A stretch of 64,000 nt of DNA, taken from the NCBI GenBank assembly GCA_020881915.1, contig JAJFPB010000002.1, forward strand, positions 5,281,001 through 5,345,000. The letters are read 5' to 3'. Under the pieces are notes generated by a model. The model saw only the letters and a program-made list of their open reading frames with translations. It was not told the DNA's origin and searched no databases. Source of the DNA: Paramyrothecium sp. XJ0827 (taxonomy: Eukaryota > Ascomycota > Sordariomycetes > Hypocreales > Stachybotryaceae). Shown here one piece after another: positions 4,041 through 64,000 of the stretch. Every line of letters begins with the position of its first letter. Position 1 is the first letter of the stretch. A program made the translations under genes and the position numbers.

Positions 4041-4882
4041 GGTGGATAGCCGGTTGTAGGTAGCTCATTCACTCTATCACATGTTACTCCTTACGTCGCC
4101 TATCCCGAATCTTAGTGCTCGAAGATCTACAAGCTCGCGATAATAGATACCAGGATTGTTCGTCATCTGACCAATGCATGCCAGCCAGTGACCTGTCCAA
4201 TTTAATTCCTCAAGGCCACATACAAGATGCAAGGACCTTGAGACCAAAACAATTGCGCAATGCGGAAACAGCTTGCCGCGGCTGCGAGTCTTGTTTACTG
4301 CATCGCTAGCAACGCCATCACTCCTTGCATCAAGACGCCTTTTTTTTTGTCTGTGAGGCGGACGACTGACGTGGCTATCTCTCGACCGCTGGCCATGTCT
4401 AGGCTGGGTTGCATTTGATGCTGGGGGCCTACCATGTACCATATTGTTAATTCCTTAGCTATGTCGGCCTTCCAATATTCCCCTCCCAATGCCAAGGCTC
4501 AGTGTTGCCGGCGCGACGCGGCAGGCTCGCTGTCTCAATGATGTTGTATGTAGGGAAACCGGTCTGAAACTGCTGTTGTTATTACTGGACCACTTGGCCT
4601 GGAAGTGAGGCGAGCATGCAACGGGCCGTTCGTAAAAGGGATACTGTTGAACCAACTGCATATCAGAATGACCAATCATCGGAACAGAGCTGCAGGTGCG
4701 CATCTGGATTGCTAAACCCAACAAGTACTATGATGCGGGAAGAGAGAAGAAGAAAATTATTTAAATATGCTTGGAGGCTACTCTGAAAAGCTTCCAGGAA
4801 ACGCCCGAACAGCATCCAAAGTTTTTTCTCTCACCTGGAAAGGCTCAAAATTTATTCCATTTGAATCAAGACGAGCGCTGCC
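4041..4882. other. Intergenic
   Basis: It holds the 3' flank of the protease gene and the promoter of the coiled-coil gene. Several overlapping antisense frames look accidental. Nothing recognised. Confidence 0.6.
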
Positions 4883-6465
4883 ATGACGCCCAAAAATAAA
4901 CCGCAATCATCACAAAACCTCACCAATAGCACTGGGCAGAATGAGGACTGTGTTAAACAATTCTTTGTTTTCATGAGCCAGTACTGCTCCCAAGACGGCT
5001 TTCAAAAGCTCAAAACCCTCTGCGCTGAACACGAAAAACTCAAACTTGACCTTGACAAGAAGGATGAGGAGTGCCAAACAAGTCTACGCGTGGTTGGAAC
5101 GCAAAGCTGTGAGTTGAGGCAGAAGCAAGAGCAAGTCGAGAAATTGCGGGGAGATAACGCATCGCTCCTTGACCAAATCTCGAAGCTGAAGAAAGAACTG
5201 AGTACAGTTAGCCAGCAACGCAAAGCAGAAGCAGACGAGTTCACAAAGTTGAATCAAATTGCAAAGCAGCACGAAACAACCAAGGTTCAACTTCATCAGG
5301 CATTGGCAGATAAAACGAGATTGGAGACGAGTCTGAAAGAAAAGGAGGCAATGGCCCGAGAACTACAGCAAATAAGATCTTATAGCGTCATGATCACCTC
5401 TTGTAGACTCCTCAAAGACAATGGGTAGGTGACTATAAATCTCGACCGTCATTTGACGCATCAAGCCGATACTAATCATCAAGCAGTATTGGTTTGACAA
5501 GTATCTCCGAAGAAGGATTCCAGTGGGCAAATGACTTTTTGTTCCAAGAACTTGAAGAAACATCTTTTGCTCAAGACAAATGGACTACACTAAAAAGTGC
5601 TGCCATTGTGAAGGACTTTGGTGTACCACTTCCGGCTTCGAACAGCCTCGCGGCCAAGCAAGTCCGCTACGCTCTAGGCCTGTTGGCACTTGGCAACGCA
5701 TTACATTGGCACATTGCGCAATCTCTTTACCTGAGCGAGGAACCAACTGAGACGACGAACTTCCTTGACTTACTCGAAAGTAAGCCCGGGGTCCAGGAAG
5801 CGTATGCCCGTTCAGTACTTTTGAAAGCACTTGAAGAGGATCAGGGGCGGATCGGTGAACTTCGAGTGGAGAATGCTGCCGAAGAGGTAATGGTAACTCT
5901 TGCAGGTTTGATTCCCGCTCAGAAGCAAGCAGCCTGCAAGTCGGCGCTCCTGCGTATGCTTCGCAACGCTCTAGAGAAATGGAGCTCTGTGCAGCGCATC
6001 AAAGAAAGAGTAGTGACCAGATTCAAATGCAGCGAGGCCGACTTCAAGTGTTGGCAGCTCCTTGGATTTCCATCGGGACCTGCACCGCCAACCAAGACAA
6101 ACAAGAATGACAAGCAAGCCAAGCCTGGCTCGAAAGCCGTCACCAACCAGAACCAAAGCACATCATCTGAAGAACCCACAATGGCAAATCTTGACCCTGG
6201 AGATATGGATCCTTTTGAGGTCTGGCCGCTGCTTTTGGCAGGCGACACAATGCTGCACCCAGGTCTCGTCTTTAATGGAGAACAGTTTACGGCAGCCCGA
6301 GATGAGGTATACAAAGAAATGAAGGAAGAAGACTCTCGACGACGATCCGAGAAAAGAAAAGAACGACGAAGCGGTGACGGTACGGGGAATGGCAGTGAAT
6401 CGAAGAGGCGCAACTCCATTGCTTTTTTACACTCAACCGGTGGTTCCGGCCTGAAAGAAAAATGA
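4883..6465 (+). CDS. Coiled-coil protein of unknown function
   Basis: Exons 4883..5424 and 5487..6465, with a 62-nt intron (GTAGGT...CAAGCAG, ACTAATC near the end as branch site), encode 506 aa. I do not recognise a named family. Residues about 45-165 are rich in Lys, Glu, Gln and Leu with heptad spacing and should form a long coiled coil. A helical, Leu/Ala-rich globular region covers about 185-365. A Lys/Gln/Ser linker follows, then an acidic DPGDMDPFEVWPLL segment, and a very basic tail (RRRSEKRKERR) that could be a nuclear localisation signal. There is no signal peptide or membrane segment. A nuclear scaffold or regulatory role is possible but not shown. Confidence 0.8.
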
Positions 6466-14686: not shown

Positions 14687-16442
14687 ATGGCTGTTCCCAA
14701 CGCCAAACAAGCGGCAAAAGAGCCGAACAAACTCATCCTGTGTTTTGATGGTACTGGCAACGCTTTCTCCGGCTCCAATGCCGACACCAATGTTGTCAAA
14801 ATCTTGAACAAGTTAGACCGCCACCACCCGAATCAATATCATTATTATCAGAGTAAGGAAGTCTTTCTTCATCTGATTCAGGATGCTGATAGATCACAGC
14901 CGGTGTCGGGACATATGACATCAATGAGCGGTCTGTTCACAAAACTTGGCTCGGGGAGGTACGGAGCAGCTTTTCCAAAACCCTCGATCAAGCTATCGGG
15001 ACGACATTCGACTCTCATGTCATGGCAGGCTATCGCTTTCTCATGCGCTATTACGAGACGGTAAGAGGGCCACCAGAGAATCAGTGTGATTCCATGCTAA
15101 CTTACGACCTCCCCTAGGGCGATAAGATTTACATGTTTGGCTTTAGCCGTGGTGCATTTACTGCCAGATTCCTTGCACGAATGATCCACACGGTTGGGCT
15201 TCTCTGCAAGGGCAACGAGGAGCTGGTACCCTTTGCATACCGGCTCTACCAGCGTTATCTAGCAGGCGAAATAGAAACATTCGGCACTACCGCTCCTGTC
15301 CAGAAGAAGACTGGGGCCGGCACAGAAACGGAGCCGTTGCTCCCCGGGGATTCTTGCAATCAATCTGAAACGACATTCGAAAGTGCCCTTAACGAAGTGA
15401 CTGCATTTAGCAACACCTTTTGCAGAAAGGAGCGCATAGGCCGAGACCCAGAGTCCAATGTCAAGGTCTTTTTCCTCGGCATGTGGGATTGCGTCAACTC
15501 CGTTGCCGTCTTTGAAGGATCCACACCCCTTCCTGTCCCTGTGGAAGGGACGGCAAACTACATCCGGCACGCCGTGGCTGTTGACGAGCGACGCGTCAAG
15601 TTCAAGGCTGCCCTTCTTGAGCAGGACAAGACATGCCCCAACAAAAACGACGACAACATTAAGGAAGTGTGGTTCCCGGGCTGTCATGGCGATGTCGGTG
15701 GCGGATGGCCTGCAGGTGACAAAGACACTGTCGACGTGAAGCCAGAGCTCACGGCTTGGCAGAAATTCAAGAACTTTTGGTTCACAGACAAGCCCAAGGG
15801 GGCGAGCAGGAACGTGCGTAACGATGCATTCCAAATGAGCGACGTTGCTCTTGCTTGGATGATAGACGAGCTTGAGCTGATTGGAAAATTGGAGCCCGAG
15901 TCAGAAGTCAAGTGGTCCAAGAACGCTGAGGGCTACAAGAAAGCATTCGCATTGGAGACGCATCAGGACCAGGCTCTCAGGGGTGTGATTCACGATTCAC
16001 TGGTATTTGGGGGAAGCGCTGCCTTTTTCAAGGTGCTCATGTGGAAATTCATGGGTCAGTTCCCGCAAGCAATAATCCTCTGCCTTGATTCTCCTCTGCT
16101 AACGTCTTTACAGAATTCCTCCCCATCATCTCCCGCTGGGAAATAGTGGACAATCAATGGGTCAAGCTTCGCTTCCCACTCAACAAGGGCTCTTATCGTG
16201 ACATCCCTCGTAACGCGGTGCTGCACGAATCGCTCAAGTACCGGCTAGAATTCGTTGAGAACTACGCTCCCGAGAACAACCATGGTGATTCGAATGAGCC
16301 ATGTCTGAATCATGAGGAGTTCGAACCGTATGCTGATCCTCTTGGTAAGGGCAGGGCGCATCCGAGTCAGGGCCATCAGCTTTACAAGCTCCCTAACTCC
16401 GATGCACCTCGAAAGAACACAAATGGGAGGCTACTGAATTAA
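14687..16442 (+). CDS. DUF2235 (T6SS Tle1-like) alpha/beta hydrolase
   Basis: Four exons (14687..14852, 14900..15060, 15118..16054, 16114..16442; introns 47, 57 and 59 nt) encode 530 aa. The start at 14687 is chosen because the family begins with the [11 protein letters not shown] strand, which lies 15 residues in. The nucleophile elbow [11 protein letters not shown] (G-x-S-x-G type), reached near residue 115, is typical of DUF2235. A conserved Asp region [11 protein letters not shown] and the HGDVGGGW segment complete the expected catalytic Ser, Asp and His. Bacterial relatives are phospholipases; the fungal substrate is unknown. No signal peptide, so probably intracellular. The splice between KFMG and FLPI restores the family reading frame. 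Confidence 0.92.
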
Positions 16443-34140: not shown

Positions 34141-37100
34141 CTAATTCATGCTTTTTGCGTCGATGTTCCTAGATTTGAATATCCTACTCAACTCTTTCAA
34201 TGATACCGGTTTTGTAAGGAAGAGATTGATCCCGCTGGCAAAGGCTTCCTGCTGCGCAGTCGAGGATGCCAAGCCCGTCAAAGCAAAGATATCGCAAGGT
34301 GGCAATTGCTGCCTAGCCTCGAATTCCCTCATCAACCGTGCAGATTCAAACCCATCCATGACCGGCATGGAAATATCCATCAGCACACAGGTGTACTTGC
34401 CTTCATTTTCGCGGAAGGCATTCAAAGCCTGCAGGCCATCAGCCGCTGTCGTGTACGCGTAGCCTAGCTTCTTGACATAGACTATGAGGATTTTGAGGTT
34501 TAGGGGATTGTCGTCGACAAGTAAGAAGTGAGCAGGTGGATCGTTTGGATTTCGTGGTTTCTCGCTTTCCCGAGAAGTATCTGTATAGCTGTCGGCGTCT
34601 GTTTGCATTGGTTGGCTCCTCTCAGTAGTTGATGATGATTGAACTCTTTCTTCATTCGGTGTCTCGTTTGGTGGAATGGCCCGTGGTGTGGTAGATGTCG
34701 GAGATTCTTGAATAGTGATGAGAGGATTCGGTTCGTTCGTTTTGAGGGGATGTTCATCCTTTGTAGTCGATGCGCTTCCAGGACCACGGATGGCAGAGGC
34801 CTGTAAACTGGTCCACCTATGAAAGGCCAAGAGCAGGACTTTGGCGAGTTTCCTGGGGCCGAGTCTGGTTACTTGGTTAAAAAAAGAATTCGATGCCTGG
34901 GGAGTGAATACGGCAACTTACGGTTGAGTGGTAAACTCGAATACTGGCCCCCTTCCATTAGATCTGAACGAAACTTCCATTTCACGTGCAATGAGGGCAT
35001 TTCGACAAACGATGACGATGGGTGTATCGATCTTGGATCCCCTTGACAGCTGAGTTTGTCTGAATGTCTCCTCGCTGCATAAAATTATGTCTGGCAACAG
35101 GTCCTGATTAGTAGAAGGACCCACGAGACACATCTCGAACCATTTGCCACAAATTGTTGAAAGTATGCTGTATTCGTCAAAGCTTGTGTCTCCCGTGCCA
35201 ATCCCAAGACCTTGCACGACAGAAAATCCTTTGAGAAAAACGCGCAATCCCTTGAGCTCATTGACATGTGCTTCGAAGTCAGTTATCTCACTGCTTGTAT
35301 CCTCTGTTAGGTTGTCTGCGGGCACGGTGACCTCCTGCATGGGCAGATCGACAGTAATGACTGTTCCTAAATGGACACGGCTCTGTACAGAAATGGAACC
35401 GCCCAAAGAGGTGACTATGCGTTTGACAAGGCTCAATCCCAAGCCCAAGCCTGCAGAAAGGCCATCTTCTTGAGAAAAAGGCGTATAGAGAAGATTTCGA
35501 AGGTAGTCTTCGCTGATGCCGGCACCAGAATCCGCCACTATGAGCTTGACGTGGATGTCAGGCGTTCCATGAGGTTTTTCCTGGCTCAATGACACTTTGA
35601 CGAATCCTCTCTGGGTATATTTAAGAGAGTTGCCCACCAGGTTCATGATTATTCGCCGAATGGCTCCTGGCTGGGTGTGGAATCTCCAGGGAATGTCGGA
35701 GTCGATCTCAAGACTGACGGCGACATTCCCGAAGGTCTCAGAGCCGTCGACCATAGCTTCATCTTCACTGTTCGGTTGTTCAATGCCATTCATGCTGTGC
35801 ATGTCAAGGAGTGTGTCAAGCCGACTTTGACCGCCCGGTCGGGATGATCTCGACGATGATGTGAGCTGTAATTTTTGGAAGTAATGGCCAGCGCACACGC
35901 ATTCGAGAACCTCTTCAGCCAGAGAGCCAATGTCGATATCAGATGATATACTCATCATCCCTGCCGTTATGTCTGCCCTTTTCTGTGGGCGGAGTCCGCG
36001 GTCAGACCCCCTCCGGCGTTTTGCACCCCCCACGAAATTGTTGACCTTGCTCCAGTCCAGTAAATGGTTTATGGTGTCTAGCAAGGTCCGGCTGCACATT
36101 TCCACAGAGTGCAGCATGTCGCTTTGGAAGACATCGAGCGGGGTGTCGCGTAACAGTTCGGCGGCCAAGACGATGCCATGCAATGGTGAGCGCAGCTCAT
36201 GCGATAGAGAGCTAAGCACGTCGATCTTGGCCTTGTTTTCCGAGAGGGCTCGCAAGCGAAGCACCTCGCCCATTATAACTGTGTTGAAGGCTTGCAGATA
36301 GCTAAGCTCGCCCTCTACTGTGAAAATACGGGTCGGAGTCTTGGTCAGCACAAATCCACCCGCAAACCAGACATGTCGCTGTGGATCCCACATTGGGACA
36401 AAGGCCACGCTCCGAGCGCCGGAAAACATCTTGCGGAAATTCTCTTCCTCATCCGCCTTGTAACGCTGATTTCTCAAACCTTGCTTCGAGGATCGAGCAT
36501 CTGGCGTAGGAGCTTCAAGAGATGAAGAGGAGAAGCGAATTTTCTCCACAGCATCAGGGGCAACAGGCTCGTCACCGGAAGAGTCGCTGGTCAAAATGGC
36601 GCCGTCGCCATTAAGATTGAAGATCTTCCCCTTTGGATAACGGCGGAAAAGGCTTGCAAGAAACGTTTCGGGAACGTTAGAGGATGCCTTGGGGCCCAAT
36701 TCGCCATCAATGCTTGATTTCAGGGAAGTCGAGAATCCAAGAACATCGCAGACGCCACCGGCGCCTTGTGAGTCGCTGGAAGACGATCGAGAACGCATGC
36801 GCTTGCCACCGTGGGAAGATGAGGATGAGCGTGAGGCTGTTGGATCCGCCTGGGAGCTAGTGAGGCCGCCGAACGAGCCGATATTTGCGCTTAGAAACAA
36901 GATGCTCTCAACTTCAATCGACTCTCTCACGATGTTTGCCGCCTTGGAGAAGATCAAATTCAACGGGTCCACACCGCCCGGCGGCGTGGCACTCGATTGA
37001 GAGCTGGTTTCCTGCAAGGCCTCAAAGGAATATGCTGGTTGAGGACGTGACTCGCCCGACGTTGTAGGGGAAACGACTTCCCCATCCGTTCTCGTGAAAT

Positions 37101-54022: not shown

Positions 54023-55254
54023 TTACGCATCGCCAGTATTCAATGGATCGCCGGCATCGAACATGGCGTTCGTAATCAGAGATGGGTAGATAACATCTCC
54101 TTGTTTCAAGGCCTCGCTGATCACGTCCATGATTGCGAAACTCTCCTCGAGTGGCATGAAGCTGCTCTCTGTTTTGCTGTCTCTGATGCATCTCGCGACT
54201 TCATCAGCCTCCCAAAAGAAACCCTCGCCCGCCCGCTGTCCTGCCTCATCATTCAAAGTAGCTGCAGAGAACTTTGATGCAGCGCCATCCTGCCGAGTCA
54301 TTGTAAAGCCGTTAGGTCGATACGCAGGATGTTGGACCGCGATCTCACCCTTGGAACCGTGAATGCGAATAGCAACCGCGTCATTCCGTTTCGCAGCATC
54401 CGTTGCTGTTCTGAGCGAGGTCGTGCAGACACCGATGGCGCCCTGTGCACGGAAGTGACACAGGACAGCCACCGAATCATCAATTCCAGTGCGATATTTA
54501 CTGACGGCAGCCAAAGTTACAGGCTTGTCCTTGTTTGATGCGGGCTGGATGTGGTAAAGAACCTGAAAGATCCAGGTAAGGCCGTAGACACCAAAGTTGA
54601 GCAATGCTCCTCCGGCGAGATCTAGGTTGACCTTGCGATGGGAATCTGGAAATTCCAGCTCAGTTCCGCCGTCCACTGTGTTGTTGAATGACACGTCGGC
54701 CGTCACCCGCGATACCGTTCCAATCTCATCGGCAGCTATTAATTCGCATACCTTCTTGTTCAACGGCTGAAATCTCGTCCACACTGCCTCCATCAAGAAT
54801 AAACCCTTTTCTCGGGCAGATTCTACCAGACAACTTGCTTGCTCTGCCGTCACCGTCAAAGGTTTCTCACAAAGCACGTGTTTTCCGGCATGCAGCGCGA
54901 GCATCGCATTCTGGAAATGGTGCGAGTGCGGTGTGCCGATGTAGACAACATCGACATCTTTATCGTTTACCAGATCGATGTATCTGCCGTGTGCTTTGAT
55001 GTCTGCAAGATTTTCGAGTTTATTCGCAAAAGCTTGTGCATTTTCGATCTTCCGGGAAGCAACCGCTACAACTTGATGTGCGACGTCTGAGACACCGCGA
55101 GATGATGGATGAATAAGTATATCTCTGCAAAACGCTACCATGTCGTGAGTTTTCCCTTTTGTCTAAATCTGCTTGGGACTTAGACTCTGCATTTACCTTC
55201 TGAAATGGCCCCTGTTGCCATGATTCCCCATCGCAAAGTGAAAGGGGAGTCCAT
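54023..55254 (-). CDS. Gfo/Idh/MocA dehydrogenase (dihydrodiol / D-xylose dehydrogenase type)
   Basis: Exons 55197..55254 and 54023..55155, with a short 41-nt intron, give 396 aa. The first exon (MDSPFTLRWGIMATGAISE) completes the NAD(P)-binding Rossmann motif. The second holds VDVVYIGTPHSHHFQNAMLALHAGKHVLCEKPLT, with the catalytic Lys of EKP, then LFLMEAVWTRF and GGALLNFGVYGL, which carries the conserved C-terminal domain residues. These are marks of the trans-dihydrodiol/D-xylose dehydrogenase branch; it would oxidise a cyclic diol or sugar with NADP in the cytosol. Without the first exon the coenzyme site would be missing, so the start at 55254 is favoured. Confidence 0.93.
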
Positions 55255-55723: not shown

Positions 55724-57011
55724 TCAATTAAAGTATGTCGAATTATCCAGATCATAATCTGTGCTATATGAGCCAGACGAATCATCCGAGTCATCGCTTA
55801 CATCAACTTCTTCATCTTCTGTGGCAGAAAACTCAGAATCCGATTTTGACATGATGCTGTCATCGTCACTATCGTAGGAGCTGTTTACTCCGACCCTGTA
55901 TTGATATCTGGAAAGTCAGCCAGCCGCGGATGGTTGGAAAATGCACGAATCGGAATTTGACTCACTCCATCGTCTCATTCATGGTCGCCCAGTGTCCAGG
56001 TAGATTTTGCCTTACGCCCACTGAAATGGCAGCATGAAGTAAATCTTGCCAAAAGGCCGACATCGTTGGTTGCTGGAAAATGCAATAAGAACAATATGAC
56101 TTCAAGAGTTAACAAAGCAACACTGTTTTTGGCGCTGGCGGTCATCTTACCTTGTTTATGCAAAGATGAATGAATGCCAGCACGAAGGATATCCACCTCT
56201 TAGATTTCTCACTATCTCCTAGTCCTGGACCGCCACGGAACTCGACTGTGCCACTGCGCCCAGGCAGAGCATTCTTGAAATTCCATAAAACATACCTATC
56301 TTTCTCGGGATTGGAGCTAGCTTGCATCAAACTGCAGAGGCTTTGTGGGTCCGGTGTTGATTGAATCAGATCCCACAAGTTGTTATAACTCATTGTAGTT
56401 CCAATTGATGCAACCCGCAGGAAGTTGGAATGCTTGGTATTCATCTTGCAGTACTTGTTATCGCGTCTGTAGGTGGGCAAGGCCTCCATGACCATAGGTT
56501 CCAAGAATATAACACCAAACGCTATGAGTCGAAGATCTCTCATGCACCATTGACGCTGAGGAGACGGTGAGACATGAATATGGCTTCCGCAATCGAGCGA
56601 CTGCAATGGGCCCCAAAAGACCTCAGACCACGCATCCCAAAAGCAATTAATTTCCAGTTCCCACGAATAATCAGTGGATAGAATAGGTGATACCGCTTCT
56701 AAGGGGACTGATCTCTGTCAGGAATTCAAGACATGATGATATGGTGCAAATATACAAGACATCAACTTACTCATAGAGTGACTAGGGGCTCCCAAAGAAC
56801 CATCCTTCGTAATCCACCACTTGTCGTAGTGTTCTGAATGTTTGCGGTACCTTTCATCCAGTCTATCAGCAATAGCGCTTAGACCCTCGCTTCTTATGGA
56901 ACGAGCCAGCTTCTCATAGTAGACTCTTCGCGAAAGGGGGTAAGAAATCCTCCGTGGCTCTGCGATGAGCTCAATCTCGACGCCAAAAAAGTAAGAGCAG
57001 GAGCCAGCCAT
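55724..57011 (-). CDS. Amidoligase A (PF12224-type, glutamine-synthetase-like fold)
   Basis: Four exons (56771..57011, 56151..56707, 55966..56072, 55724..55907; introns 63, 78 and 58 nt) give 362 aa. The start at 57011 is chosen by match to the paralogue at 60235. Features of the family: FGVEIEL at 9-15 (metal/ATP acidic strand), HYDKWWITKDGSLG at 61-74, CGSHIHVS at 120-127 and RYVLWNFKNALPGRSGTVEFRGG at about 218-240, here broken by residues differing from B. The acceptor ATCAG at 56708 was chosen because it restores IPLEAVSPILS, as in B. The enzyme class ligates an amine to a carboxylate using ATP. The C-terminus is a 60-residue Ser/Asp/Glu-rich acidic tail (DDSDDSSGS) not seen in B. No signal peptide: cytosolic or nuclear. 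Divergent from GGCT A. Confidence 0.87.
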
Positions 57012-57955
57012 GATCAAAGAAGCGGAAAGACCAAATGAGGCTTGTAAGAGAAGAGATGCAGTTTGTGAGAGTTCTCTAGAGGTGGTCATGATATCTGTGG
57101 CTTCGACTGAACCGGGGAATCGCGCCACGTTCGATAGCCCCTGATGTCAACCCCAGTTCTCGGTCCAGATGCGTCAACTAGACTTCATCATTTCGACCTG
57201 ACCAGATCCCTATTGGCTCCATTGTTTCGAACGCCCATTCTGTAGCAGTTACTCGGGGAAAAGGAATGAATCAGGCTCGCACTGTACGGCAGATTTTGAG
57301 GCCACAACTGCCGAGCACGTCCGGTGGTAGTACAGAGCCACAGGCTGCAGGAATGAGGCGTGCTGTAATTGCACTTTCGGAGCAAGATTACAATTTTTTT
57401 TTCGGTGTCCGTGTCGAGGAGTTCACGCATTGGACGGCTCTTAGATTGTGCGGCGAAGGATTCTCAACCCGCCCCGAACGTCAGCACAGGGGGCACCAAT
57501 TTGGATTTAAGGCTATACTGGGCGCGATAACGACGTTGCAAGATATTATTGGCATGTGATATTTTACGGATATTCGCCATTGCCTAAGATGATCTAGACT
57601 CGTGACCAATGCAGGCATAGATGCTGGACACCACATCAAGCAGGTAGACGATGGCTATAAACAATCTCACGTGTTTGATGAACAAGAAATAACCAGCTGG
57701 TACAACAAGATGACATTTAAGCGTGGCTGTTAATCTTGGAAACCTGGAGCCTAATGTCGGGCTACCGCATGACCAATTCCTTACTCACAGCCTTGTCAGT
57801 TCTGTCATAATCCTCTTTCCTCATAAAAATCCGCTCCGGCATTTGCTTTGCACATGTTGATTCCTTTTCTAACGCCTTGTCAACACGACACAATTCTTCC
57901 CATCCAACCATTTTTGCACGCCTTCTTGTCACGTTGTCAAGTCGTATCAGAAGGA
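57012..57955. promoter_or_regulatory. Divergent promoter, amidoligase A / GGCT A
   Basis: 944 bp between start codons facing apart. No gene is supported. The equivalent gap in unit B is 827 bp, so a shared control region is likely, though no site was named. Confidence 0.45.
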
Positions 57956-58729
57956 ATGGCATCGGAAGGGCCGAGGCAGCTCTATTTCGCTTATGGCAGT
58001 AACCTCGGGCTCAAGCAGATGGCCTCGCGATGCCCACGGAGTCGATACATCGGACGTGCTATTCTTCCAGACCATCGCTGGCAAATAAACCAGCGAAGGT
58101 TTGCGAACATCATAGCCTGCAGTGGTTACAATGTGCACGGGCTTGTCTTTGAGCTAACGGCGGACGATGAAGCGAGCCTTGACAGAAGCGAGGGTGTCTC
58201 GGCTTACGCCTACTCAAAAGCATACAAATCAGTCACACTCTACACAGCCTCTTTTGAGGCGCGAGTACCTACCAAGCGGCTGGCCGAGAACCCAAGCCTG
58301 CAGGAAGCGGCACAGCATCACCTGGAGACTGCCAAGATCCAGCATCAGGTTTTGGTATACATGAGCACTATTTACGTGAACGAAGGGACTGCCAAGCCCG
58401 AGTACGTTGCTCGGATGAACTCAGGGATCAGGGATGCTACAGCACTAGGCATCCCCGCCGACTATTTCACGAATACGGTTCGAGGATGGATCCCGGCGAG
58501 CTCTACTGCACGGATACGCGACACGGGGGCGTACGAAGTAGAGCGTGTGAGCCGTCGAGGAACTCAGTCTAGTCGGTCTCGACGCGCGCGATCCGAATCT
58601 GAGCAGCGGACCTTTAGGAGACCCCCCGAGATTTCAGTTGTACATGCGAGGGAGTGGGAGGGTGGACCACATTGGTATTGGCCGTTTCACAACCGCAGCC
58701 GAAGCACCTCTGTAAGATATCACATTTAA
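57956..58729 (+). CDS. GGCT A, gamma-glutamylcyclotransferase-like (AIG2/GGCT fold)
   Basis: Single exon, 257 aa. The start at 57956 is chosen, not the upstream frame start at 57848, because it directly precedes the conserved first strand LYFAYGSN (residues 9-16), the substrate-binding YGSN loop. GLVFELTADDEASLDRSEGVS carries the catalytic Glu79, the position of Glu in LDxxEG of human GGCT, and ATALGIPADYFTNTV matches the family's last helix. The enzyme would cyclise a gamma-glutamyl group to 5-oxoproline and free the amine. Residues about 205-257 are basic and Arg/Ser-rich (RRGTQSSRSRRARSESEQ). Pairs head-to-head with amidoligase A. Confidence 0.9.
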   Translation: MASEGPRQLYFAYGSNLGLKQMASRCPRSRYIGRAILPDHRWQINQRRFANIIACSGYNVHGLVFELTADDEASLDRSEGVSAYAYSKAYKSVTLYTASFEARVPTKRLAENPSLQEAAQHHLETAKIQHQVLVYMSTIYVNEGTAKPEYVARMNSGIRDATALGIPADYFTNTVRGWIPASSTARIRDTGAYEVERVSRRGTQSSRSRRARSESEQRTFRRPPEISVVHAREWEGGPHWYWPFHNRSRSTSVRYHI

Positions 58730-59229
58730 GGCTGTCTGCCTAATTTTCTAAATGAAGCCTGCGAAAGTGAAGCAAGAAGGCAATCGCGTGACTGTGACGC
58801 CACCATGCCAATGTGCACTTCCAACGTTGTGAAACCAACAGGGGGCATTCTGCCAGTTTTCTGTCCCACGAAAGAGGAAGGTCGGAGCCTGACCACCGAG
58901 CGGCTGATAAATCAACTGCACAAGTTGCGTTGTACTGGCCATGCGGCTCTGCCATGCGCTCTAGTACAAGACATGATGCAGAATCATATACACGACATGA
59001 CTAGGGGTCCTGGCCTCATAGCTCATTTCTCGAATTAGAGCGTGAAGGGTACGTCGGAAAACTATTGAATGGCCAAGTAAAATCATGATTGATAGATTAT
59101 GACCAATGTGCATGTATTTGATGTCGTAGTGAGAAATCTCAAGCATGACCCTCTGTCCGTTTACATATATCACTGCCACTAAAGAAAGTTGCATTACCCA
59201 GGCGGCTATTTGGGAGCATTTCTATTTTG
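58730..59229. other. Spacer between units A and B
   Basis: 500 bp between the 3' ends of GGCT A and amidoligase B. Small frames occur on both strands without a domain; one boundary of the duplication should lie here. Confidence 0.5.
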
Positions 59230-60235
59230 CTAGTATTGGGTTTCATTCAGGACCTCATATCTATTGGGCAGGAGATGCCTGATAGATAAGGCACGCGAGG
59301 CTCTTTTAATTTCCTCGTACAGTTTATAGGGACTTTGAATGTTGTCGGCAGTGGTTGGATTGCTCAGCGGTTTCTGTGAATCGTCAGCGGCATACATGAC
59401 CATCGTGAAGTGGAAATTACCAGTGTGAGCATAGCATGAATAAACGAGAGCGTGAAAGCAATCCACCATTTCGTCCTGACCTCACCACGGAGGCATCTTC
59501 CGCCCCTGAACTCAATGGTACCCGTCTTTCCTGGCACAGTATTTGCAAAGTTCCACAAAGCGTATCTGTTATCCTGCATTACATCCTTCAAAGAGACCTT
59601 GCTAGAGGCTCCCTTAATGAGATTTATGAGCGACGTGACATTGTGGCATGCCGCAAGTTGCGACGAGTTGACAGTATTTGGCTTGCAGTAAGGGCTCGTT
59701 GTCCGGTTGTACATAAGCAAATCCAGGACGTAGGGTTCGAATACAACGACCCCGAAAGCGATGTTCTTGAGCTCTTCGAGGGTGAAGGTTGCGTTTTGAC
59801 CCTTGGAGACGTGGATGTGGCTACCGCACTTGGATGATCGCTCGGGCATGTGGAAGACGGCACGCATTGCGTCCCAGAATGTGTCGATCTCGACTTCCCA
59901 CCGATTGGACGTACTCAGAATGGGAGAAACAGCTTCCATAGGAACTATAGATTACATCTCAACACAATTGGAACCTCGAGGAAGTCGGAGGTTGACTCAC
60001 TCATATCTTCGGGGTTGCCGAGGGAGCCATCTCTCGTGATCCACCATTTGTCGTAGTGCTCACTGGCCCTGACTTGGGTTGTCTCGAGTTTATTGGCTTT
60101 GGATTTGAGGCCTCTTCTGACAAGGGCTGCAGACAGCTTGCCGTAGTATAGGGCGTGCTTCTCGTTGAGCGGGTTTCTCACCTTGTGCGGCTTCATGCGC
60201 GCCTCAATCTCAATGCCAAAGGAATAAGAAGCCAT
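59230..60235 (-). CDS. Amidoligase B (PF12224-type)
   Basis: Exons 60001..60235, 59421..59944 and 59230..59373 (introns 56 and 47 nt) give 300 aa. The same family marks as copy A are present: FGIEIEA at 6-12, HYDKWWITRDGSLG at 60-73, CGSHIHVSKG and RYALWNFANTVPGKTGTIEFRGG. Several intron positions are shared with A: after the codon for the Met before IPMEAV, and at the end of the FIHA helix. The tail (about 47 residues, KPLSNPTTADNIQ...) is short and neutral to basic, without A's acidic stretch. All residues expected for ATP and metal binding are kept, so it should be active. It diverges from GGCT B. Confidence 0.88.
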
Positions 60236-61062
60236 GGAACCTGCAAACGTTGAGACTTTAAGTAGATGAGTGTCGAAATAATGCGAGTTTGGCGATGGAT
60301 CAAGGAACGATCGAAGTTATGTATGCCTGCGAATCACCGGAGTATGGTGAGGGCCTGCGCGATTCCATGTTCAAGCAAAACTATCACAGGCCCCCAACTC
60401 TGCCTCTACAGCTTTACATGACTGGTACAATTACAAAGGTAAATCAGTATCATATGGCATGTATAGGCATGTCACTGACTGTACTGTCGGCTCCATTTTT
60501 CATCCGTGAAAGGTACAGCAGACTGCTTTATCTCGATATGCACTACTTCATATTTCTCGTCGAACAAGTATAAAAACATTTGTAGACTGACAGCAAGGCC
60601 CTGGCTTGAGCCTCGAAGTTGAAGTGCCAGAGTCCTGGGGCTTCAGGGGGTGTCATTATGAAATGGCCGCGAACCACATGGTGACGAAGCGCGGAGTTCA
60701 AAAACAAGGCGAGCTCCGGCCGTTCATGCAGTCAGCCCCAGCACGTTACATTGCGGATTGGCCTTGCGCAGGTTTTGGCCACACAAGATAAGTGGTAGTC
60801 TGTACATGGCGACACAGTCCTATCTTGATGAAGACACTATGCGGCTGTTGCATTTGAGTGGTGACCGATACTACAGAAACAATCGAAGAGAACTGCCCGA
60901 GGCCAGGCAATTTTACGCGTGTCCGTTTCCCGCACCGACCTCGAAATTCCGCTCGTGGCTTCTCAAGCTCAAACAATACTAGAATGAGGACATTTACCTA
61001 CCTACAGTATTGCATATAAGCAACACAAAGGATCCTGCCGCTTTTTCGAACCGCATCAAGCA
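60236..61062. promoter_or_regulatory. Divergent promoter, amidoligase B / GGCT B
   Basis: 827 bp between facing-apart starts. One antisense-free frame at 60758-60982 encodes a basic peptide that was considered and rejected as a gene. No clear binding site. Confidence 0.4.
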
Positions 61063-62290
61063 ATGTTTACAAGGCGGGTTCAAGAGCGTTGCCCGCTCTA
61101 CTTCGCGTATGGCAGCAACTTGCATCTCGCGCAAATGGCCCAGCGATGTCCGACGAGCTCTTTCATTGGAAAAGGGACATTAGATGGATATCGTTGGCAC
61201 ATAAATGAGCGTGGAGTTGCAAACGTGGTAAAATCTCCAGGCGACATTGTCGAGGGTCTCGTTTACTCAATCACAGCCAAAGACAACAGGGCGCTGGACC
61301 GTGCTGAAGGTGTATCTAAAGATTTCTACAAGCCAATGGAATTAGAGATCTACTGTGAGCGCCATCAGCAATACTGCAACCTCAAAACCTCCAGGGTAGC
61401 TCAACTCATAGCTCAAGACAATGATACGGAGGCGGGCCCATCTTTCGGCTTCTCACAAATATCCCAGCAAGCCTCTAACCAACCCGCAGATCTAGTCGAC
61501 GCCTTGGTATATGTCAGTGAGGATTACACAAAGAACGGGACAATACGAGAAGAATACGTTCTTCGTATGCAAAGGGCAACATCTGACGCCATTGCCCTTG
61601 GCATATCTCCATTGTTCGTCGATAGATACATCACACCACACATACAGAGGCCGGAGCAAGCAGCAGAAGAGACTCTCGACATGCAAAGCAAGGGAAGCTC
61701 TAATACATCTCTTCAACCCAATCCCCAAGGCAAGTTCCATTGTTACATCGAAAATATCCTGTCTGACAATGTGTTCTTCTCTAGGACCTAGGAAGAAGCG
61801 TATTAGCCACAAAGTCCAGCCAAGCGGTTCAATAATGATGAACCTCGAAAGGTTGAAGCGCGACAATCGTCAATCCCATGCACAATCTGGATTCGCTCCA
61901 CCAACCGAACTCCTCAATGAAATGAGTAATGCGAGCGCAACAAGAGGATCCAAGGGACCCAAAACAGCTTACATTATTTTAGTCAGTGGACCAAGCGACG
62001 GATCAACTACCAATGGCGGTGTAAAAGGCGCAACACATGATTTGGAATTGGCTAACGAGATTGCCGTCCAGCGATTCCTCGATAATCTACCAATCTACCT
62101 TCCTGATGTCTTGGGATCGGATAGTAGCCAATGGACTCGATCAGAAGCTGAGGACACAAAGTCTCATGCCTTAGCCTGGCATATCGAGGATGATGGATGC
62201 ATATTATTGAGTGCGGCTATAGGAGAAAATGCGAGGTTCACTGTTCGCGTTGTTGCGCAGATACTCTCGGCTAAGGTTTACGAGTTTTGA
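61063..62290 (+). CDS. GGCT B with an extra C-terminal domain
   Basis: Exons 61063..61729 and 61785..62290, joined by a 55-nt GC-AG intron, give 390 aa. The N-terminal GGCT domain has LYFAYGSN (residues 12-19), GLVYSITAKDNRALDRAEGVS with catalytic Glu82, and DAIALGISPLFVDRYI, parallel to copy A. From about residue 222 the spliced frame adds about 168 residues: a basic GPRKKR start, a Ser/Gln linker and a compact region (KTAYIILVSGPSDG, ANEIAVQRFLDNLPIYLP, AWHIEDDGCILLSAAIGE) I do not recognise. The donor reads AG|GCAAGT; no GT site gives an open frame. If unspliced, a shorter 242-aa product results. Pairs with amidoligase B. Confidence 0.85.
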
Positions 62291-62895: not shown

Positions 62896-64000
62896 TTAGT
62901 GTCCATTAGTTCCGTTAGTTACGGTATTCCCATTCGTCCCGTTGGTTCCGTTAGTTCCATTAGTTCCGTTGGTATTGCTCCAGTTGAGAGGTTGATCTGG
63001 CATAGTTCTGACTTCGTGTATGGCCTTTGCGACATATTGCACATTTCTCGTGTTCACTAAATGCCGTCATCTTAGCTTCAATCCAAATTGTTCAGGCTCG
63101 ATGAAACTTACAGCCGGAAATGGAAATGCGGCCTGATGCAAGCATATATATGTGGAATTGGTCCCGGAGAAGCTTAACCTCTCGAATGTTAAGGCCTGTA
63201 TAGGAGAACATACCGATCTTCAGCCAAAAATTAGCTCTGTTGTTCTCTTTTCTCCCTCGTGCCCAAAGACTCCATGGAATTTGAACGAGGGACTTACCTG
63301 GTCGATAATATGATTCCATGAGCCCGGGGTGCCTAGGCGGATCAACTCGTCATGGAGGGCATGTCGCATGTCTTTTATACGACTGCTCATGACCTGAAGG
63401 TCTGCCATCCATGTCGCGGTGAGTTCTTTAGACCTCAATACGGTCTTGACAATCGTTGAGCCATACTTTGGCGCCATGGAAATTTCGGACCGCAGCAAGT
63501 GCTGTAGACTCTCGAAAGCCTTTGACTTGATCTCGGCTGACTCTTCTGCGAGGACGAGATGCAAGGCTCCCGTCCGTTGGCCGTAGAGACCGAAGTTTTT
63601 CGAAAATGACTGCGCTACGAACATTTCAAGTCGAGGCTGTTGTTGATAGAAGTGACGAATGGCCCAAACATCTTAGACTGGATCTCCAGAAGCGAAACCT
63701 TGGTACGCGGTGTCGAAGAAGGGGAACAACTGTTTGCGCTGGCAAACATCTGCTATGGCCATCCATTGTTCCTTGGAGGGGTCCAAACCAGTTGGATTGT
63801 GGGCGCAGGTGTGTAGAACAAGGACATCTCGCGGCTGGGCGTGTGCTTCAAGAGTCTGTAGCATAGCGTTGAAATCAAAAGAGCAGTCGGCTGCCTTATA
63901 GTAGGGATACAGTCGGGTGGTAACGCCAACAGTCTCCCAGATTGTATGGTGGTTGGCCCAGGTTGGGTCTGGAAGCCATACATGCCCTGGACGGATATGA
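62896..64000 (-). pseudogene. Aspartate aminotransferase, partial, with an in-frame stop
   Basis: The gene enters from the right edge. Exons seen: 63298..64000 (open at the edge), 63112..63217 and 62896..63056 (introns 80 and 55 nt). Class I aminotransferase marks are clear: HVWLPDPTWANH, CAHNPTGLDP, FFDTAYQGFASGDP, the PLP-lysine segment FVAQSFSKNFGLYG, and the end IGMFSYTGLN...GRISISGLNTRNVQYVAKAIHEV. The enzyme exchanges amino groups between aspartate and 2-oxoglutarate. At 63673-63675 a TAA lies in frame between GDPV and DVWAIRHF, with the frame intact on both sides; family members have a coding residue there, and CAA to TAA would explain it. The tail is an Asn-Gly-Thr repeat. A sequencing error is possible. 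Confidence 0.8.
62902..62972 (-). repeat. 9-bp minisatellite coding for Asn-Gly-Thr repeats
   Basis: Near-perfect nonamer units (AAYGGNACN on the minus strand) end the aminotransferase frame and encode about six NGT-like triplets before the TAA at 62896-62898. The repeats vary mostly at third positions, so the frame appears kept. Confidence 0.8.

Follow-up and report, generated by a model that had tools for sequence, protein, structure and literature searches.

A doubled, divergent amidoligase and cyclotransferase gene pair in Sordariomycete fungi as a candidate system for adding and removing gamma-glutamyl groups

Passages of PMC2588565 describe the hallmarks of carboxylate-amine ligases of the glutamine synthetase (GS) fold as the motifs GhExE (strand 1), HxH-type (strand 4) and Ex[RK] (strand 6), together with acidic residues in strands 2 and 3 and two active-site arginines. 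The same passages place an amidoligase-family ligase beside an AIG2 gamma-glutamyl cyclotransferase in Firmicutes; an expected wording of the Pfam entry that names fungi was not borne out by them. Phage amidoligase and GGCT genes correspond to PHROG 2443 and 2520, and passages of the papers concerned contain no tested function for the phage pair (PMC11318856, PMC5513430, PMC3485107). Pairing of the two enzymes is already in print for Firmicutes and phages, as predictions available since 2008 for which the literature searched, including the passages of these four papers, yielded no tested function. The fungal, divergent and doubled form of the pair was not found in that literature.

Here we describe such a form in Paramyrothecium sp. 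XJ0827, in a window of 64,000 nucleotides, the whole stretch of DNA analysed. Gene models, which are predictions with splice sites picked by hand, confirmed the original prediction of two units in the same orientation, each with an amidoligase divergent from a cyclotransferase. All four genes are intact and open at 55724-62290, in the order amidoligase A (-), cyclotransferase A (+), amidoligase B (-), cyclotransferase B (+):

57011-55724, minus strand: amidoligase A, 362 aa; four exons (57011-56771, 56707-56151, 56072-55966, 55907-55724)
57012-57955, no strand: divergent intergenic region of unit A, 944 bp start-to-start
57956-58729, plus strand: cyclotransferase A (gamma-glutamylcyclotransferase-like), 257 aa; one exon
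60235-59230, minus strand: amidoligase B, 300 aa; three exons (60235-60001, 59944-59421, 59373-59230)
60236-61062, no strand: divergent intergenic region of unit B, 827 bp start-to-start
61063-62290, plus strand: cyclotransferase B (gamma-glutamylcyclotransferase-like), 390 aa with a C-terminal extension; two exons (61063-61729, 61785-62290)

The first intron falls at the same position in the protein in amidoligases A and B, and the single intron of cyclotransferase B is of the GC-AG type. Amidoligase A ends in an acidic, Ser/Asp-rich tail with an SIMSKSDSE motif that resembles the tails of its relatives. Unlike the phage pair, the fungal set bears introns and is located on a 6.45-Mb contig, 1.1 Mb away from its end; similar DNA was not found in the plasmid collection. 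The two intergenic regions have no 11-mer in common in either orientation and a single 10-mer in common, in opposite orientations, and promoter elements shared between the units were accordingly dismissed.

The source genome (51.8 Mb) contains eight PF12224 loci and seven PF06094 loci, among them a third divergent amidoligase/cyclotransferase pair on another contig, with 662 bp between the starts. Three pairs with their two loci within 2 kb are seen where 0.004 would be expected; adjacency exceeds chance, with a Poisson P of about 1e-8 that is indicative only, as duplicated pairs are not independent. Five of the eight amidoligase loci have no PF06094 match alongside, and one of these (C14) is A-like and carries an in-frame stop.

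Both window amidoligases exceed the PF12224 (Amidoligase_2) cut-off of 22 bits, at 64.9 (A) and 52.4 (B) in the genome frames and at 51.0 and 50.4 with exon 2 alone. The GhExE motif, FGVEIE or FGIEIE, is found in A, B and the third copy, and its two glutamates, E10 and E12, are invariant in all homologs with a residue aligned there (45/45 A-type, 34/34 B-type). D68, E82, H121/H123, E232/R234, R159 and R215 are 94-100% conserved and retained in all three copies. The active-site motifs quoted in the original prediction are all present in the four window proteins. The predicted structure of an A-type homolog (P0002) has the GS/glutamate-cysteine ligase fold with the catalytic motifs of the superfamily: GhExE sits on a strand spanning residues 5-15, E82, HxH and ExR are on strands, D68 is two residues past a strand and R215 two before a short one. 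These residues were matched to the superfamily motifs by their order along the chain, and Foldseek TM-scores of the model are low (0.28-0.41). In fold and order of catalytic motifs the fungal amidoligase resembles YbdK, plant glutamate-cysteine ligase and gamma-glutamylmethylamide synthetase, but it has no sequence-level match to them: single-sequence and profile searches of the PDB retrieved no solved ligase. None of five homologs scored above any NCBIfam family cut-off. By its motifs and modelled fold, the protein would be classed with the GS-fold carboxylate-amine ligases as defined in the passages of PMC2588565. Its fold and catalytic residues are consistent with a ligase that uses ATP and acts on glutamate or an acid similar to it.

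Cyclotransferases A and B score 29.7 and 35.4 bits against PF06094 (cut-off 22.8); against PF13772 (cut-off 27), B passes at 27.7 and A falls below at 20.4. The YGSN loop and the Glu of LDxxEG are 98-100% conserved among homologs, and this Glu aligns with a position that holds Gln in the 3cry entry and that we take, by role, to be catalytic E98. Score, loop and glutamate together point to membership of the PF06094/GGCT-fold family for both proteins. For a homolog of cyclotransferase B (P0219), human GGCT (C7orf24) is the closest solved structure by both sequence and fold. In contrast to the human enzyme, which to our knowledge has no paired PF12224 ligase, fungal B has an extra C-terminal domain, predicted in the P0219 model to fold separately from the GGCT domain. 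Alignments with homologs cover as much as 99% of the length of B; the weak fold matches of the extension, modelled together with the GGCT domain, do not imply a new fold.

Fungal linkage was scored from co-occurrence on a contig, contigs being identified by their length, and from locus tags. At least 31 of the 85 contigs of relatives with an amidoligase homolog also bear a cyclotransferase homolog, at least six carry all four gene types, and locus tags in five Xylaria, Fusarium and Colletotrichum genomes are consistent with the gene order of the window. The expectation that the pairing would be conserved in relatives is borne out to this extent; 54 of the 85 contigs, many of them short and some with Penicillium A-type ligases, have no cyclotransferase among the matches listed (best 120 of 221). 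In Colletotrichum sidae, A-type and B-type cyclotransferases lie on separate contigs among the matches listed.

Within each family A and B share only 40% identity, and in trees of both families the A/B split predates the separation of Xylariales, Sordariales, Glomerellales and Hypocreales. The anticipated parallel split of the two families was thus recovered. The description of the units as tandemly duplicated suggests a recent event, but a recent duplication is ruled out by the identity and by splits common to several orders. Probably, the pair was established before the fungal A/B split and then doubled as a unit. When the fungal ligase tree is rooted on bacteria, branching among A, B and the third lineage is poorly supported (37), and long branches meet at that point.

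As the original prediction stated, amidoligases neighbour AIG2-type cyclotransferases in some bacteria, consistent with the Firmicute pairs in the passages of PMC2588565. A cyclotransferase accompanies the ligase in 48 of 54 bacterial loci retrieved with one phage ligase, a biased sample in which the bacterial query was itself paired and some records are near-duplicates; in all 48 it lies downstream on the same strand. A terminase-like ORF occurs near 33 of the 54. A second amidoligase-like ORF occurs in 32 of the 54; none of the 32 has any of the three catalytic motifs tested, a pattern suggestive of a partner without catalytic activity there. The Firmicute and fungal pairs have the same two adjacent families and the same catalytic motifs, but the former lie on one strand, whereas the latter are divergent, intron-bearing, doubled and only distantly similar. 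With 944, 827 and 662 bp between divergent starts, the fungal pairs do not form a one-strand operon of the bacterial kind. Fungal and phage proteins are 21-29% identical (best 20 of 68 phage records). The B-type ligase homolog P0036 matches phrog_2443 and phrog_7469, P0002 matches phrog_7469 only and the cyclotransferase homolog P0099 matches phrog_2520; in the phage sample, likewise biased, 13 of 20 stretches were chosen by eye and 5 of 11 matches were also sources of the search profile.

Sequence and modelling support the predicted gene structures, folds, conserved catalytic residues, linkage and age of the split, and we consider it reasonably probable that each unit is a system for putting on and taking off a gamma-glutamyl group. 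The amidoligase would activate a carboxylate with ATP, for which the gamma-carboxylate of glutamate is the likeliest candidate, and join this carboxylate to an amine; the divergent cyclotransferase would strip the gamma-glutamyl group as 5-oxoproline and free the amine. The pair would have been doubled as a unit, both units being kept adjacent in several Sordariomycete lineages with their active sites intact. Since both are retained side by side in this state, the two units probably differ in the amine that they act on or in where they act. An amide of glutamate that is formed and then broken, as originally proposed, is the best-supported reading, with the donor, the substrate and a shared intermediate inferred. 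Glutamate would be the donor, as is usual but not universal in the superfamily (passages of PMC2588565), and one substrate would be common to both enzymes, of which adjacency and a matching split are no proof. The parallel with butirosin synthesis drawn in the original prediction is an analogy; the butirosin ligase is an ATP-grasp enzyme and does not have the amidoligase fold.

Gamma-glutamyl protection of amines is known from butirosin synthesis and putrescine breakdown, and gamma-glutamylation could likewise shield an amine in a biosynthetic or degradative pathway whose other enzymes lie nearby or elsewhere. A GFO/IDH/MocA oxidoreductase (54023-55162) and an aminotransferase (63220-63672) are plausible tailoring enzymes close at hand, yet no further companion gene of the four is known from co-occurrence on contigs and locus tags, and such a pathway seems possible if unlikely. 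A scan of 20 window ORFs (63220-63672 and 19 of the 23 stop-to-stop frames that reach 230 aa, the others being three cyclotransferase frames and 34141-34917) found no PKS or NRPS domain, which counts against it and led us to dismiss a secondary-metabolite cluster. Rather doubtful, too, is an accessory gamma-glutamyl cycle in which the ligase makes a glutathione-like dipeptide that the cyclotransferase turns over. The models are near glutamate-cysteine ligase and human GGCT, enzymes of the mammalian gamma-glutamyl cycle; however, presence is patchy, and two diverged, linked copies are found in an organism in which ordinary glutathione enzymes are expected. Glutathione-like or related peptide metabolites have been suggested for the bacterial family in passages of PMC2588565.

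Heterodimers of paralogous ligases have also been proposed for the superfamily (passages of PMC2588565), and the motif-less second ORF of the Firmicute loci would fit a single system in which A and B form one hetero-oligomer with the two cyclotransferases as its paired removers. We give this little credence, as window A and B each retain all catalytic residues checked, each ligase has its own cyclotransferase beside it and A-type genes are common on contigs without a B-type match. That two unrelated enzymes merely inherited their linkage, with a neighbourhood in common but not a chemistry, could account for amidoligase loci that have no cyclotransferase; adjacency of the same two families in bacteria, phages and fungi, in differing orientations, makes this highly improbable.

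If the put-on and take-off reading is true, a writer/eraser gamma-glutamyl pair in a linked four-gene set found in species of four Sordariomycete orders would constitute undescribed fungal chemistry. Because Firmicutes and their phages have this enzyme pair too, identification of the fungal substrate would also shed light on it there. The claim is open to direct test with four small proteins.

Additions to the original prediction were a third pair, evidence on how old the four-gene set is, the extra C-terminal domain of cyclotransferase B, CaaX tails on some A-type ligases and the phage parallel. A CaaX-like C-terminal motif occurs in 8 of 51 A-type ligases. As a very long shot, the pair might serve reversible gamma-glutamyl marking in a eukaryote: a CaaX-bearing ligase A would be prenylated, held at the membrane and mark amines of membrane proteins or lipids, the cyclotransferase would erase the mark, and A and B would be the membrane and soluble branches.

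The window lies on contig C8 of a 15-contig, 51.8-Mb genome and carries two units, each a PF12224 amidoligase (GS fold) beside a PF06094 cyclotransferase (GGCT-like). All four genes are open in gene models whose introns were picked by hand, of the GT-AG type plus one GC-AG:

57011-55724, minus strand: amidoligase A, 362 aa, hand-chosen splice sites
57956-58729, plus strand: cyclotransferase A, 257 aa, divergent from amidoligase A
60235-59230, minus strand: amidoligase B, 300 aa, hand-chosen splice sites
61063-62290, plus strand: cyclotransferase B, 390 aa, divergent from amidoligase B

Start-to-start gaps of 944 and 827 bp in these models agree with the values in the original prediction. Intron 1 interrupts the modelled proteins of amidoligases A and B and a third copy on contig C9 at an identical position, between DGSL and EAVSP or EVVSP. 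Residue 48 of cyclotransferase A is Arg, a position at which the A-type and B-type homologs without an alignment gap (63 and 107 rows) have Gly.

Within this genome, PF12224 occurs in at least 8 places and PF06094 in at least 7. Three of eight amidoligase loci are paired with a cyclotransferase, the third being a divergent pair on C9 with 662 bp between starts; by chance, pairs no more than 2 kb apart would number about 0.004. Among the unpaired loci, an A-like copy on C14 (L022, C14:3067000-3076900, about 4495-5463) has an in-frame stop, and no YGSN frame was seen near it in 9.9 kb; it is probably a decayed orphan. A copy on C13 is 28% identical to amidoligase A over 155 residues, and the three remaining loci were identified solely by their PF12224 match. 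The closest unpaired cyclotransferase relative, on C11, has a neighbouring ORF that appears protein kinase-like by eye. The nearest relative that could be named, judged by a single protein, is Paramyrothecium foliicola (Hypocreales, Stachybotryaceae), whose P0177 is 90% identical over 303 residues to the third-pair cyclotransferase; its nearest protein to cyclotransferase A, among the matches listed, reaches 56%, and its name is absent from the 98 amidoligase homolog rows. Even between close relatives, the set of four genes may be patchily distributed or evolve fast.

Protein searches across other fungi returned 98 amidoligase homologs and 117 of cyclotransferase B; the best 120 of 221 were used for cyclotransferase A. 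Each homolog was typed as A, B or C9 (the third pair) according to which protein of the window genome was its best BLAST hit. Same-contig linkage was scored by matching the size of each row's longest contig, which does not display the neighbours themselves; by this measure, 31 of 85 distinct contig sizes with an amidoligase recur among the cyclotransferase matches listed, and species names, compared by eye, agree in all 26 shared contigs that show one. All four types share a contig, again by size, in six cases (Xylariaceae FL1651 and AK1471, Hypoxylon FL1857, Xylaria cf. heliscus, X. telfairii and X. scruposa). Short contigs place the genes close together: a 4942-bp contig and a 6967-bp contig of Staphylotrichum tortipilum each carry a type B amidoligase and cyclotransferase, and contigs of 7264 and 8148 bp carry amidoligase B with both cyclotransferases. 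A-type cyclotransferases (68 contig sizes, among the matches listed) and B-type ones (115) have 21 sizes in common. Locus tags of five genomes, which carry no orientation, are consistent with the window's gene order:

Xylaria hypoxylon: g8702 cyclotransferase A; g8703 amidoligase B; g8704 cyclotransferase B
Fusarium gaditjirri: 3414 cyclotransferase B; 3415 amidoligase B; 3416 cyclotransferase A
Colletotrichum trifolii: v006382 amidoligase A; v006384 amidoligase B; v006385 cyclotransferase B (v006383 is not among the homologs listed)
X. longipes: g2882 cyclotransferase A; g2883 amidoligase A
Fusarium sp. DS 682: 004483 cyclotransferase B; 004486 amidoligase A

Counting against linkage, for 54 of the 85 amidoligase contig sizes no cyclotransferase is among the matches listed; these are not proven absences, because the best 120 of 221 homologs were used and the search detects only relatives sharing short words. 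Penicillium A-type ligases are among those with no cyclotransferase listed, and in C. sidae the A-type and B-type cyclotransferases, among those listed, lie on contigs of different size.

The ligase tree held 89 rows (86 of 98 homologs and three from the window genome); the 12 omitted were P0083, which is a fusion, and proteins shorter than 240 aa. Window A fell inside an A-only set of 44 rows (SH-aLRT 92) and window B inside a B-only set of 29 (SH-aLRT 96); 2 of 45 A-labelled and 6 of 34 B-labelled rows lay outside. Hypocreales, Glomerellales, Sordariales and Xylariales are represented in both sets, the orders of three example species and of P. foliicola having been looked up and those of the rest being presumed. 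Bacterial rooting did not settle how A, B and the third lineage branch relative to one another. The cyclotransferase tree comprised 108 rows (44 linked, 60 of 178 unlinked and four from the window genome), leaving out rows under 190 aa and P0325-P0331; a single change separates the linked A-type (19) from the linked B-type (25) proteins. Supports in these trees come from a quick search, with some long branches. P0083, from Neopestalotiopsis clavispora, is a predicted 564-aa protein in which a B-type amidoligase without the HxH region is joined to a HET domain; it is either a real fusion or a gene-model error.

A Firmicute ligase-cyclotransferase pair has been in print since 2008 (PMC2588565), and phage or island examples appear in three other papers (PMC11318856, PMC5513430, PMC3485107). 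Using one paired ligase, from a Faecalimonas phage, as query, we fetched 54 bacterial loci. A cyclotransferase ORF was present in 48, always on the ligase's strand, where it either follows the ligase frame or overlaps its end, whereas the fungal pairs are divergent. Many of these loci are probably prophages, since 33 of 54 contain a terminase-like ORF within the stretch. A second, diverged amidoligase-like ORF lies near the active amidoligase in 32 of the 54 (L051-L104); it looks like a pseudoenzyme partner, because the GxExE, GxHxH and ExR motifs are missing in all 32. A diverged amidoligase-like ORF also occurs in a Firmicute phage or prophage (L047:1609-2373). Among 20 phage or viral loci, 13 of them hand-picked by eye from match lists and two (L033 and L036) apparently the same phage, 11 stretches carry a cyclotransferase; in nine it and the ligase are at most about 1.5 kb apart, and in two the distance is about 4 to 4.5 kb. 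Five of these 11 supplied the search profile. Other such loci have glutamine amidotransferase and ATP-grasp genes in place of a cyclotransferase. P0325, a bacterial protein related to cyclotransferase B, also carries a fused poly-gamma-glutamate hydrolase domain (PF05908), a hint of gamma-glutamyl substrates.

The simplest account, which we favour with moderate confidence, is that the amidoligase would put a gamma-glutamyl group on and its partner cyclotransferase would take it off, the pair having been passed down as one unit and duplicated anciently. The bacterial pair is already known; what appears new is the fungal divergent, doubled form, which we did not find in the papers searched. A 2011 paper reports that a putative amidoligase domain is enriched in Sclerotinia and Botrytis (PMC3158057).

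Many A-type ligases have an acidic C-terminal tail, rich in Ser and Asp, that contains a SIMSKSDSEY-like motif; a loose tail pattern fits the window's A as well as 17 of 51 A-type rows. A CaaX-like C-terminus (CVIL, CTIL, CVTM, CVVM or CCIM) ends 8 of 51 A-type rows (P0001, P0002, P0008, P0017, P0026, P0027, P0032 and P0035) versus 1 of 280 other rows, a frequency made uncertain by possibly wrong 3' ends of gene models. Seven of the eight come from Fusarium, Hypoxylon, Nemania, Rostrohypoxylon, Boeremia, Xylaria and Penicillium; the modelled amidoligase A of the window has no such end. Prenylation is commonly predicted from a CaaX motif, and these GS-fold ligases are accordingly predicted to be prenylated. 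Elsewhere in the window, an ORF at 15118-16146 encodes a Tle1-like phospholipase catalytic domain (PF09994, E 1.9e-51).
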